Shown: piece after piece, positions 20,799 to 25,703 of the stretch
Layout: each line of letters begins with the position of its first letter
How positions within the stretch are numbered: the stretch's first letter is position 1
Virus record (IMG/VR): IMGVR_UViG_3300042691_002359
Coordinates: 1-28,366 of that record
DNA: 28,366 nt
From: a virus
Reading direction: 5' to 3' (one strand)
The notes under the pieces: model-generated
Database searches by the model: none
Seen by the model: the letters and a program-made list of their open reading frames with translations, nothing else
What the model was told of the DNA's origin: nothing
Made by a program: the position numbers and the translations under genes

Positions 20799-21188
20799 GA
20801 TAACGAATTATTTGTCAAAAAACTGAAAGAATTAGCACAACTCAAACAGGTTAAAACACCTGGTGGCCCTGCCATTAGAATGCCTGATGATCCAGAACCT
20901 GTTTGGCGCAATGGCAAAGAATTTATCGTAAGCAAAGACAACAACCCCACTCTAACATATGAAATTGTTAGGATGTATCCCATTGTCAAAGACTGTGAAG
21001 ACTGCGGCAAAGAGTCTGTATCTGATAGAAGTGTACAGCGTAAACTGTCTTCTTTTCCTCAAAATCATTGGCGTGTAAGTTGTAGTCATTGTAAAATGAA
21101 TCAGCATCCAGAAACAGGTGAGTTCTCCATACCAAATAACATTGTAAATGTCTTTTTTCACCGCTATTACAGCATAAGAAATAAATAA
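20796..21188 (+). CDS. Hypothetical zinc-ribbon protein, 130 aa
   Basis: The ATG at 20796 is used; an upstream GTG at 20706 would overlap the preceding gene heavily. The product has an N-terminal helix (ELFVKKLKELAQLKQVK), a middle region with RMPDDPEPVWRNGKEFIV, a C-X2-C pair (CEDCGKE) and a second C-X2-C pair (SCSHCKM) about 25 residues later. This looks like a treble-clef or zinc-ribbon core. No nuclease or lysin motif is visible. The end overlaps a late-type promoter box (21180-21187). I do not recognise the family. DNA or RNA binding is possible from the zinc knuckle but unproven. Confidence 0.65.
   Translation: MDNELFVKKLKELAQLKQVKTPGGPAIRMPDDPEPVWRNGKEFIVSKDNNPTLTYEIVRMYPIVKDCEDCGKESVSDRSVQRKLSSFPQNHWRVSCSHCKMNQHPETGEFSIPNNIVNVFFHRYYSIRNK
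21180..21187 (+). promoter_or_regulatory. T4-late-type promoter box AATAAATA before a short non-coding unit
   Basis: AATAAATA overlaps the last codons and stop of the preceding gene. Nothing coding follows for 250 nt. Instead there are nested stems and a terminator ending near 21375. The box thus would produce a discrete RNA of about 180 nt starting close to 21193. Confidence 0.55.
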
Positions 21189-21192
21189 TTAC

Positions 21193-21375
21193 GTCCAGGA
21201 GAGTTTGCCATACTTGCCTGGATAGGTGTTAGGGGGTTTTTGTTCTTTCATCGATTGCCGTTGATGAAACCGTGTGAGGCCTGTCATCTTTACACATCTC
21301 CGTTGCCAAACCTAACATCGATATTCCCTCAACCCACGTGGTTGGCAAAGCCCTCGCAATGAGGGCTTTGTTTTG
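21193..21375 (+). ncRNA. Candidate structured small RNA (about 180 nt)
   Basis: The stretch lies between a promoter-like box and an intrinsic terminator and contains no ORF. Perfect stems are TCCAGG (21194-21199) with CCTGGA (21217-21222), TGTTAGG (21227-21233) with CCTAACA (21311-21317), and TTTCATC (21246-21252) with GATGAAA (21263-21269). TTGCCAA (21303-21309) can pair with TTGGCAA (21342-21348), which competes with the terminator stem and abuts the TGTTAGG pairing. This arrangement suggests a folded RNA or attenuator. No known class is recognised. GTGTTAGGG at 21226-21234 could also pair in trans with 812-820. Confidence 0.55.
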
Positions 21376-21376
21376 G
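21347..21376 (+). terminator. Intrinsic terminator closing the small RNA
   Basis: AAAGCCCTC (21347-21355) pairs perfectly with GAGGGCTTT (21361-21369) around the loop GCAAT, followed by GTTTTGG, with further T-rich sequence from 21381. The T-run is short but the 9-bp stem is strong. Confidence 0.8.
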
Positions 21377-21388
21377 CTTCATTTTCTA

Positions 21389-21417
21389 TTGACTTTTTCT
21401 GCGATTTAATAAATAAT
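21389..21417 (+). promoter_or_regulatory. Composite promoter: sigma70-like -35 plus late-type box
   Basis: TTGACT (21389-21394) is followed after 17 nt by AATAAT (21412-21417), a plausible sigma70 pair. The late-type box AATAAATA (21408-21415) overlaps the -10 position. It lies 22 nt before the 59-aa gene and after the terminator, so the gene and the structured region behind it could be transcribed both early and late. Confidence 0.55.
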
Positions 21418-21437
21418 AGTGTAAGACAGGCACTTAT

Positions 21438-21617
21438 ATGGCAAATTATAAAAACAAGGCATACGCTAATACCAAAAAGGGCACCTCCGTCAAAGACGCA
21501 GAGGGCTATTGGTATCACCAAAAACAAACTCAGGCACAAGACAAACTCATCAAACAATGGCTACAATCCTCAGGCAAAAAATTATCTAACACTAAAGGTT
21601 GGCGGGCCAGTTTGTAA
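21438..21617 (+). CDS. Small basic protein, 59 aa
   Basis: The ORF begins MANYKNKAYANTKKGTS, continues with a Tyr/Trp-containing turn (AEGYWYHQKQ) and an amphipathic helix (AQDKLIKQWLQSSGKKL), and ends GWRASL. It is strongly basic with many Lys and Gln. The start follows the composite promoter by 20 nt; the SD is weak (ACAGG). Codons differ from random reading in this region, and the frame is open to a TAA at 21615-21617. I recognise no family. Small basic early phage proteins may bind nucleic acids or host factors, which is speculation here. The 425 nt behind it are non-coding and structured. Confidence 0.62.
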   Translation: MANYKNKAYANTKKGTSVKDAEGYWYHQKQTQAQDKLIKQWLQSSGKKLSNTKGWRASL

Positions 21618-22042
21618 TACCGCTGTGGAAAAACCAGGCAACTAAAACCTGGACACGTAACATATTGAGGCACCCCCGTCGTGGAAACGACTATCCTGAG
21701 AAATGGAAGTGGGTCAGAGGTTGAAAACAAAGATAACCAACGCATTGATATAGTATGAATGTTAGCATACGAAAACACTGGCTATAAAAACCCACAGCAC
21801 AAGGAACGAGGCGTGGGGTAGACTACAGTATAACCTATACTTTAGTTGATGTCGTGGTAGGAATGGAAAAGCACAGAGTCCATTAGCATACAGTGAATAA
21901 AGACCTACTTCCAACATGTCTTGGCTGAGATAACTCACAGAAAGAGGACGGAACCATAAAAGAGGTTCCGTCTGACTAAACAATCTACAGAAAGTTCTTA
22001 ATAATTCTTATAAGATAAGTTTGAAAGAAAAACAAATCACAA
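21618..22042 (+). ncRNA. Candidate large structured RNA (about 425 nt)
   Basis: No ORF of note occurs here, but perfect stems are dense. CCAGG/CCTGG are at 21634-21638 and 21648-21652. GTCGT/ACGAC (21678-21691) closes a GGAA tetraloop of the GNRA type. GTGGGT/ACCCAC (21709-21714 and 21790-21795) encloses GTATG/CATAC (21753-21770). AGTATA/TATACT (21827-21841) is extended outside by CTA/TAG. GTAGG/CCTAC (21857-21861 and 21904-21908) encloses AATGG/CCATT (21862-21866 and 21880-21884). GACGGAACC/GGTTCCGTC is at 21947-21955 and 21964-21972. The region also has many unpaired A runs, as in ornate phage RNAs. I cannot assign it to GOLLD, ROOL or another class by eye, and boundaries are approximate. 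Confidence 0.6.
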
Positions 22043-22084
22043 GTGAAGTTTGAACAGAACGCAGTGAAGTGAAAACAGAACGCA
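22043..22084 (+). repeat. Two 21-nt tandem repeats
   Basis: Units at 22043-22063 and 22064-22084 share GTGAAG, then a 3-base variable part, then AACAGAACGCA; a third partial copy (GTGATT) follows. They lie in the leader of the gene at 22127, behind the structured RNA. They could be protein binding sites or part of the RNA. Confidence 0.75.
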
Positions 22085-22090
22085 GTGATT

Positions 22091-22110
22091 AGGACTAACT
22101 GGTTAGTCCT
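22091..22110 (+). promoter_or_regulatory. Hairpin just upstream of RBS
   Basis: AGGACTAAC (22091-22099) and GTTAGTCCT (22102-22110) are perfect complements, with only TG between them. TTT and then AAGGAG, the SD of the gene at 22127, follow directly. It could define the 3' end of the structured RNA (short T-run) or protect the mRNA 5' end. Confidence 0.6.
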
Positions 22111-22126
22111 TTAAGGAGAAACAAAA

Positions 22127-22375
22127 ATGACACACATCTTTTATGCTCGATATTTGCCTTTTGATTTACTCAGTACATTTGACAATCAAAAAGACGAAAT
22201 GATAAAACACCTCATAGGTGAAAGTGCTGTTCAACGAGCAATAGAACTTGATTGCTCATTGACTTTATTAACGGGAGCCTACGACTTTAACAGCCAAATG
22301 GTACAAGTAGGCATAAAAATACAAGGCCCAGATGAACGAGTAACATTTTGGCTTTTGGCATACCAACCAAAGTAA
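22127..22375 (+). CDS. Hypothetical protein, 82 aa
   Basis: An AAGGAG SD 11 nt before the ATG supports this start. The product has a mixed N-terminal part (HIFYARYLPFDLLSTF), a helix (EMIKHLIGESAVQRAIEL) and strands (CSLTLLTGAYDF, MVQVGIKIQGPDERVTFWL), ending AYQPK. It is a small alpha/beta protein with no membrane segment and no motif I recognise. It is the first gene after the structured RNA, and the -35 box of the next gene's promoter begins immediately after its stop codon. An early host-interaction function would fit its place but is unsupported by sequence. Confidence 0.7.
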   Translation: MTHIFYARYLPFDLLSTFDNQKDEMIKHLIGESAVQRAIELDCSLTLLTGAYDFNSQMVQVGIKIQGPDERVTFWLLAYQPK

Positions 22376-24878: not shown

Positions 24879-25703
24879 ATGTCTAAAATTAATCCTAAAT
24901 TGTTAGATCAAGTATTTGACGGAGTTGAACTACCTGATAATACCGCAATGATACGTCAAACAGCCATTGCTAAAAGAAATCAATCCGGTTGGTATGAAAA
25001 GAATAATCAAAGACTTCAAGATCCTGAATATGTAAAAAAACTGTCTGAATCTATAAAAGATTTTTATCAAGCCAATCCTAATTTTCAAAAAGACAAAGTA
25101 AAATCTCAGCAATGGCAACAAGCACATAAAAAAGGTTGTCAAGAACACGTAAACAGTCCTGATTATGTAAATCCTCGTGGTATGTTAGGTAAAAAACAAA
25201 GTAAAGAAAGTAAGAAAAAATTATCTGAAAAGTTAAAAGGACAAATTAAACCTATAGATGGAAATAAAAAAATAAGTGAAGCCAGACTGGGAAGAAAACC
25301 AAAACAAGAATCTATTGAAAAAATGCGTAAGTCATTAACAGGCAGAGAGTCTGGACGTAGTCGCCAGATTCAAACACCATCAGGCGTTTTCAATAAATTA
25401 AAGGATGCCGCAGATTTCTACGGAGTTGCCACTGGAAGTATCAAAAATTTTATCAAAGGACAAAACGTCAAAGAATGGTTTAAACCTCATCTTGAAGCAA
25501 AGGGTGTAAAATTCAAAGGGTTAAAGCCTTTAGGATTTAAATGGTTAGGAGATGTTAAACAAGAACTTGGTGCTAAATCTGTTCAAACACCCGATGGTAT
25601 TTTTACCAATGTCAATGAAGCAGCAGAATTTTATAAAATAACATCTACTGCCGTAAGATATAGAATAAACTCACAACCTGACAGATATTTTTACATCAAA
25701 TAA
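24879..25703 (+). CDS. NUMOD-type DNA-binding protein, nuclease domain not visible
   Basis: This 274-residue, Lys-rich protein has repeated NUMOD3-like motifs in the middle (GKKQSKESKKKLSEKLKGQI, later GRKPKQESIEKMRKSLTGRE). Two NUMOD1/HTH-like modules are at the C-terminus (TPSGVFNKLKDAADFYGVAT and TPDGIFTNVNEAAEFYKITS). These are DNA-recognition parts of GIY-YIG or HNH homing endonucleases. The N-terminal 100 residues show neither a GIY-YIG pair nor an HNH core, only a basic helical region (QDPEYVKKLSESIKDFYQAN). AAA-rich codons and higher AT than neighbours suggest separate origin. It could be a degenerate homing endonuclease or a repurposed repressor/DNA-binding protein. It ends just before a strong terminator. 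Confidence 0.75.
   Translation: MSKINPKLLDQVFDGVELPDNTAMIRQTAIAKRNQSGWYEKNNQRLQDPEYVKKLSESIKDFYQANPNFQKDKVKSQQWQQAHKKGCQEHVNSPDYVNPRGMLGKKQSKESKKKLSEKLKGQIKPIDGNKKISEARLGRKPKQESIEKMRKSLTGRESGRSRQIQTPSGVFNKLKDAADFYGVATGSIKNFIKGQNVKEWFKPHLEAKGVKFKGLKPLGFKWLGDVKQELGAKSVQTPDGIFTNVNEAAEFYKITSTAVRYRINSQPDRYFYIK

Follow-up and report, generated by a model that had tools for sequence, protein, structure and literature searches.

The window studied here, a virus record from IMG/VR that is 28,366 bases long and encodes tail genes and a T4-type terminase large subunit, contains in a single copy a structured RNA of about 415 nt (positions 21586–22002, plus strand), which is almost certainly a conserved large structured phage RNA missing from Rfam 15. 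Large structured RNAs are seldom found, and those known from phages, few in number (GOLLD, ROOL), still have no assigned function. The present RNA forms a compact class whose secondary structure is very well determined and which occurs in two unrelated phage lineages.

The original prediction, made from the sequence alone, had marked positions 21618–22042, which are indeed the largest gene-free stretch of the window, as a structured non-coding block of about 425 nt. Its structured and non-coding nature was confirmed, but its boundaries had to be moved, the new limits being taken from conservation in two alignments (A1 and A2) and from the points at which the flanks switch in relatives. Conservation sets in at the sequence CTAACAC (21586), 32 nt 5' of the predicted start and within a 59-aa ORF, while positions 22003–22042 lie outside the RNA because conservation stops near 22002. 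The plus strand of the block 21618–22042 folds with −104 kcal/mol (z = −3.16; none of 100 dinucleotide shuffles was equally good), as against a z of only −1.17 for the minus strand of the same block. Modulo 3, the distances between helices fall evenly on all three residues, i.e. at random, so that the RNA element is non-coding; the same random spacing rules out the open frames that run across it on the minus strand, and no hidden conserved ORF is present.

A model of 76 base pairs was derived from covariation in an alignment of 35 sequences, in which 98.2% of the cells are canonically paired and 46 of the 76 pairs show two-sided changes. The covariation score of these 35 sequences was 0.287 versus 0.118 in shuffles (equalled in none of 500), and pairing fell from 98.2% to 32–41% when the 3' partners were slid by 1–3 columns. 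Applied to 84 non-redundant sequences, half of which came from an unrelated seed, the same model was 96.1% paired, with two-sided changes at 54 of the 76 pairs. Compensatory changes in the homologues are therefore present, as the original prediction needed, and exceed both the column-shuffle and the slide controls, as is characteristic of a conserved structured RNA.

The 5' part of the RNA (all helices are on the plus strand) opens with two small hairpins, P1 (21602–21623; 21602–21605 with 21620–21623), which lies partly inside the 3' end of the 59-aa ORF and is 100% paired with two-sided changes at three of its four pairs, and P2 (21634–21652; 21634–21637 with 21649–21652), 96.4% paired with two-sided changes at all four. 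The covariation model then places P3 (21662–21751; 21662–21671 with 21742–21751), which closes a junction comprising P4 (21672–21675 with 21711–21714), P5 (21678–21691), P5b (21694–21707) and P6 (21719–21738). P5 is the tetraloop hairpin that had been predicted at these positions; the hairpin is real, but its loop is not conserved among relatives. A long-range pairing of 6 bp, which had been proposed between the ends of 21709–21795, turned out to be wrong, since 21711–21714 pairs instead with 21672–21675 in P4 and 21791–21798 is part of P9, both of these helices showing compensatory changes. The branched domain is followed by the hairpin P7 (21753–21770), which is near-invariant in sequence and 100% paired, and which was the source of the second search seed.

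The core of the RNA is built on the helix P8/P8b (21776–21895; 21776–21784 with 21884–21887 and 21891–21895), also part of the covariation model, which encloses P9 (21791–21817, with the loop GGAACGAG at 21803–21810), the variable P10 (about 21819–21849) and the hairpin P12 (21864–21882). In distant members P8b has been swapped wholesale and yet remains paired (GCUCC/GGAGC in L201, GACUGC/GCAGUC in L214 and UGUCGC/GCGACA in L200). P11 (21857–21908; 21857–21861 with 21904–21908), 100% paired with two-sided changes at four of its five pairs, crosses P8 to form a pseudoknot, in which a strand inside P8 pairs with a strand outside it and which is invisible to a single-sequence fold. The nested stems predicted at 21857–21908 correspond to P11 and to P12 within its span, and the predicted 9-bp stem at 21947–21972 is the hairpin P13, 94.9% paired and with pairs that are mostly invariant or changed on one side only, which separates the two units of the 3' domain.

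No Rfam 15 family reached its gathering threshold anywhere in the window; a permissive scan by E-value of positions 21150–22150 returned weak, unrelated matches only, and Rfam 15 gave nothing credible on 17 relative loci, the matches to freshwater-2, skipping-rope and isrG being far below gathering. Since neither the RNA nor its relatives match any Rfam 15 family, GOLLD, ROOL, HEARO and group I introns, the models against which a check had been proposed, are ruled out. The suspicion that the block was a large structured phage RNA outside both GOLLD and ROOL, and perhaps a new class, was thus well founded, given its homologues, their strong covariation and the complete lack of an Rfam match. 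No account of this RNA was found in the open-access papers that our survey covered.

The RNA is a member of a large family, uncatalogued in Rfam and present in two unrelated types of phage. Homologues were found, by profile searches and hand alignment, at no fewer than 157 IMG/VR loci, with 94 non-redundant elements among the matches listed. A 15-mer from the P5 hairpin retrieved five diverged copies (73–81% identity over 417–499 aligned columns), whose alignment contains long invariant stretches. A 17-mer from one of these copies (GGAAAAGCACAGAGTCC) had 78 matches in viral contigs, of which about 3 would be estimated by chance, and 77 loci were confirmed by profile search after this seed. The second seed, from hairpin P7, yielded at least 80 further elements that lack the first; therefore the family exceeds the list, and its structure was not created by the first seed. 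A seed from the P6 loop gave mostly chance matches. The 17-mer had 12 matches in 84,980 bacterial and archaeal genomes, which is the chance level, and none was accompanied by the remaining RNA, while BLAST of six members against INPHARED (50,697 phage records) found chance words only. Each record holds one copy, even where records span 220–364 kb.

Among the 94 elements from the matches listed, 52 lie in a T4-like context, with genes that by sequence resemblance encode a gp46-like ATPase, baseplate proteins and a radical SAM protein, 34 lie in a context like that of the window, and none lies in both. Genes of several unrelated families stand directly upstream, and in many cases their stop codon is supplied by the 5' end of the RNA. 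The genes downstream also vary and are often on the opposite strand, i.e. convergent. Because the two contexts are mutually exclusive and the RNA often stands before convergent genes, it probably acts in trans. A 5' cis-regulatory RNA (riboswitch or leader) was rejected on the grounds that there is no consistent same-strand downstream gene and that many downstream genes are on the opposite strand.

In the window, the RNA is preceded by the 59-aa basic ORF (21438–21617, plus strand), whose last codons overlap it and which belongs to no Pfam or PHROG family. Relatives of this ORF precede the RNA in L208 and L303, whereas elsewhere unrelated ORFs or none are found, and in L257 and L014 there is no ORF at all between the promoter motif and the RNA. 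As upstream genes vary or are absent in relatives, the 59-aa protein, which had been suggested as a possible partner of the RNA, is not conserved in that role. A separate family of 86–92 aa ORFs ends at the 5' end of the RNA in L188, L179 and 23 other elements; it carries C-x2-C and WLPK motifs (GPHAxKxxCxTCxxKFxxWLPK) and has no Pfam match.

A SegE-type GIY-YIG ORF (PF19835) is located near 55 of the 94 elements among the matches listed, in both contexts (e.g. L179, L039 and L211), either upstream or downstream of the RNA and always on the same strand; there is none near the window copy. This neighbourhood suggests that the RNA locus has spread by homing, with the SegE-type endonuclease as a possible homing partner. 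As an obligatory partner it is ruled out, being near no more than these 55 elements. The window also encodes a 274-aa ORF (24879–25703, plus strand) that adjoins the terminase gene and has a NUMOD3 motif, which is typical of homing endonucleases. Only one tRNA gene was found in 1.37 Mb of flanks around the 157 loci listed.

In the 3' domain a unit of about 27 nt is present twice, around P13 (GUCUUGGCU...ACUCACAUAAAG and GUCUGACU...AUCUACAUAAAG). In the window, unit 1 (GUCUUGGCU...ACUCACAGAAAG) occupies 21918–21944 and unit 2 (GUCUGACUAAACAAUCUACAGAAAG) 21970–21994 of the plus strand, and both end in the word ACAGAAAG (21937–21944 and 21987–21994). These last 6–9 nt are the same in the two copies within an element and different between lineages. 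A shared word of at least 7 nt, at a fixed offset between the units, is present in 87 of 90 elements, versus 14–15% for cross-paired or shuffled units, and in 85 of 90 it begins 13–16 nt after P13. About 15 different twin words occur across lineages; in addition to that of the window, they include ACAUAAAG, ACAUGAA, GCAUAAU, ACAUAAU, GAUUCAAG, GAUUCAGAG, GGCGAAAG, CCAUCAAG, AUCAGGAU, ACGAAAUG, UCAGAAU, UCGUCAAGC, ACAUCAAG and GGAAAU.

On a tree built from the remaining RNA, the twin word has changed no fewer than 27 times, compared with about 40 for shuffled labels. Part of these apparent concerted changes may reflect recombination that exchanged the 3' domain as a whole, and gene conversion could be what keeps the two units identical. 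Pairing with the 5' arm of the unit 1 hairpin was rejected as the cause of the identity, because the arm pairs with the first bases of the word only and, in several lineages, with no part of it. No consistent complement of the twin word was found within the RNA or in the surrounding 4–15 kb. A search for twin target sites of the word ACATGAA in 13 phage records returned the RNA itself and, in two near-identical records, one other site. The simplest reading of the twin words is a lineage-specific partner in trans, either RNA or protein, that would be bound twice. The rule itself provides a testable handle, in that any genuine target has to follow the word from lineage to lineage.

Five copies of the 10-mer AATAAATAAT are present in the window, all on the plus strand (at 1067, 21180, 21408, 22904 and 25744), against 0.17 expected; this 10-mer resembles the T4 late promoter, which is TATAAATA. 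The copy at 21408–21417 precedes the 59-aa ORF and the RNA, and is overlapped by a sigma-70-like site on the same strand (TTGACT-17-AATAAT, 21389–21417). Relatives of the window type have an NTAAATA motif, in the form NTAAATANTWGTGACAGGCA, 50–65 nt 5' of the RNA, and no clear late-type promoters were found in the T4-like contexts. From these motifs, it appears probable that the RNA is expressed late in the lineage of the window.

The pentamer AGGCA reaches 7.8 times the locus background in the 75 nt preceding the RNA in relatives. It is also about twofold over-represented in the plus-strand genes of the window (64 occurrences versus 31.9, sd 4.8, by synonymous codon shuffling). Downstream of the RNA, a perfect hairpin, AGGACUAAC-UG-GUUAGUCCUUU (GGACUAAC/GUUAGUCC), followed by UUU, stands at 22091–22112 (plus strand), immediately ahead of the ribosome-binding site of the following gene; it may mark the 3' end of the transcript, and would be a terminator or a control of the start site. 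Terminator-like hairpins occur within 170 nt 3' of the RNA at 11 of 96 loci, versus 2 of 96 in a control region.

Just upstream there is a second structured non-coding RNA, about 187 nt long (21192–21378, plus strand; fold z = −4.24), flanked by the late-type promoter at 21180–21189 and by a terminator hairpin (about 21344–21370, plus a T run). Its counterpart in L257 has the same place and stem order, with other paired sequences and the conserved stretch AGGCCTGTCATCTTT.

A reading to which we give roughly even weight is that the RNA is an uncatalogued class of about 415 nt that acts in trans, is probably made late and serves as a scaffold presenting two identical words to one partner. The RNA would be made late in infection; its 5' branched domain (P1–P7) and pseudoknotted core (P8–P12) form the fixed scaffold, and its 3' domain is a tandem duplication of the unit of about 27 nt, with the copies held apart by P13. 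The structure, the non-coding nature, the distribution, the independence from flanking genes and the twin-word rule are established by the analysis, whereas late expression, action in trans and the partner with its nature belong to the proposal. Each unit ends in the same lineage-specific word of 6–9 nt, and one partner species, either a host RNA recognized by base pairing or a dimeric RNA-binding protein, would be bound at the two sites, so that the RNA might work as an adaptor, sponge or decoy. As a tentative extension, it may be a natural bivalent guide or sponge RNA, with a fixed pseudoknotted scaffold and identical words re-specified in each lineage to recognize one target twice.

Other explanations have to be considered. 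By analogy with GOLLD and ROOL, the RNA might assemble into an RNA-only cage or oligomer, forming multimers via its conserved loops and using its 3' units as contacts or cargo sites. Its size, pseudoknotted core, highly conserved loops and lack of an obligatory protein neighbour are consistent with this, as is the fact that both known large phage RNAs form cages (PMC12286853). We nevertheless regard a cage as unlikely, considering that the RNA is unrelated to GOLLD and ROOL in sequence and structure, that no tRNA islands are nearby, and that the twin words, lacking a complement within the RNA, are no obvious candidates for kissing sites. The idea that the block is a non-coding spacer folded by chance, with no conserved structure, could appeal to the fact that a z of −3.16 from a single sequence is not proof by itself; its probability is practically nil, as it is refuted by covariation in two samples from unrelated seeds.

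The pseudoknotted core and invariant loops, the presence in two unrelated lineages and the SegE-type ORF near so many elements of both contexts would also agree with a ribozyme, or with the remnant of a self-splicing mobile element that the homing endonuclease next to it had moved. This is improbable, because there is no intron or ribozyme match in Rfam and no interrupted gene, downstream genes are often convergent, the helix order is unlike that of group I introns, and about 40% of the elements, including that of the window, have no SegE nearby. Finally, the start of the RNA often coincides with the stop codon of the upstream gene, which, together with the terminator-like hairpins that follow it, could point to an element that acts in cis on the transcript to which it belongs (as a 3' UTR stabilizer, processing site or attenuator). 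However, the RNA is preceded by genes of several unrelated families or by none, it is often followed by genes on the opposite strand, and its conserved structure goes far beyond what known 3' elements need, so that this explanation, too, seems improbable.

The scaffold with twin words, which is the reading we prefer, can be compared with known systems. Nearest in kind are GOLLD and ROOL, yet the new RNA belongs to neither. GOLLD is a large structured phage RNA of more than 800 nt and unknown function, induced in the lytic phase and often encoded near tRNA islands, whereas ROOL has multiple pseudoknots and no known protein partner, and its cryo-EM example, of 659 nt and near tRNA islands, forms a nanocage (PMC12286853). 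Like GOLLD, the new RNA is a large structured phage RNA with no known function; unlike it, it measures about 415 nt by its conservation limits, short of the 800 nt or more with a conserved 3' half that mark GOLLD, is not found at tRNA islands and has no Rfam match. With ROOL it shares large size and a pseudoknot, but its structure is different and again has no match in Rfam.

HEARO, or OMEGA RNA, is a structured RNA found near an IsrB, IscB or TnpB nuclease and has one variable guide. The new RNA likewise is frequently beside a nuclease ORF. However, this is a small SegE GIY-YIG ORF (58%), the sole recurrent nuclease neighbour among the matches listed, with none of the IscB/TnpB kind found adjacent, and the RNA has two identical short words and, here too, no Rfam match. 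In group I introns the helices follow the order P7-P3-P8-P7, whereas in the new RNA a hairpin sits between the 5' strand of P11 and the 3' strand of P8; such an intron was also rejected because the flanking genes are intact, variable and often convergent. The phi29 packaging RNA is a trans-acting structured phage RNA of about 174 nt whose loops kiss between copies, while in the new RNA neither complementary loops nor a consistent packaging-gene neighbour were found. To the best of our knowledge, no other RNA class has the twin-word design; if the proposed mechanism is true, the twin-word adaptor would be a categorically new RNA design, present in at least two unrelated lineages of phages.
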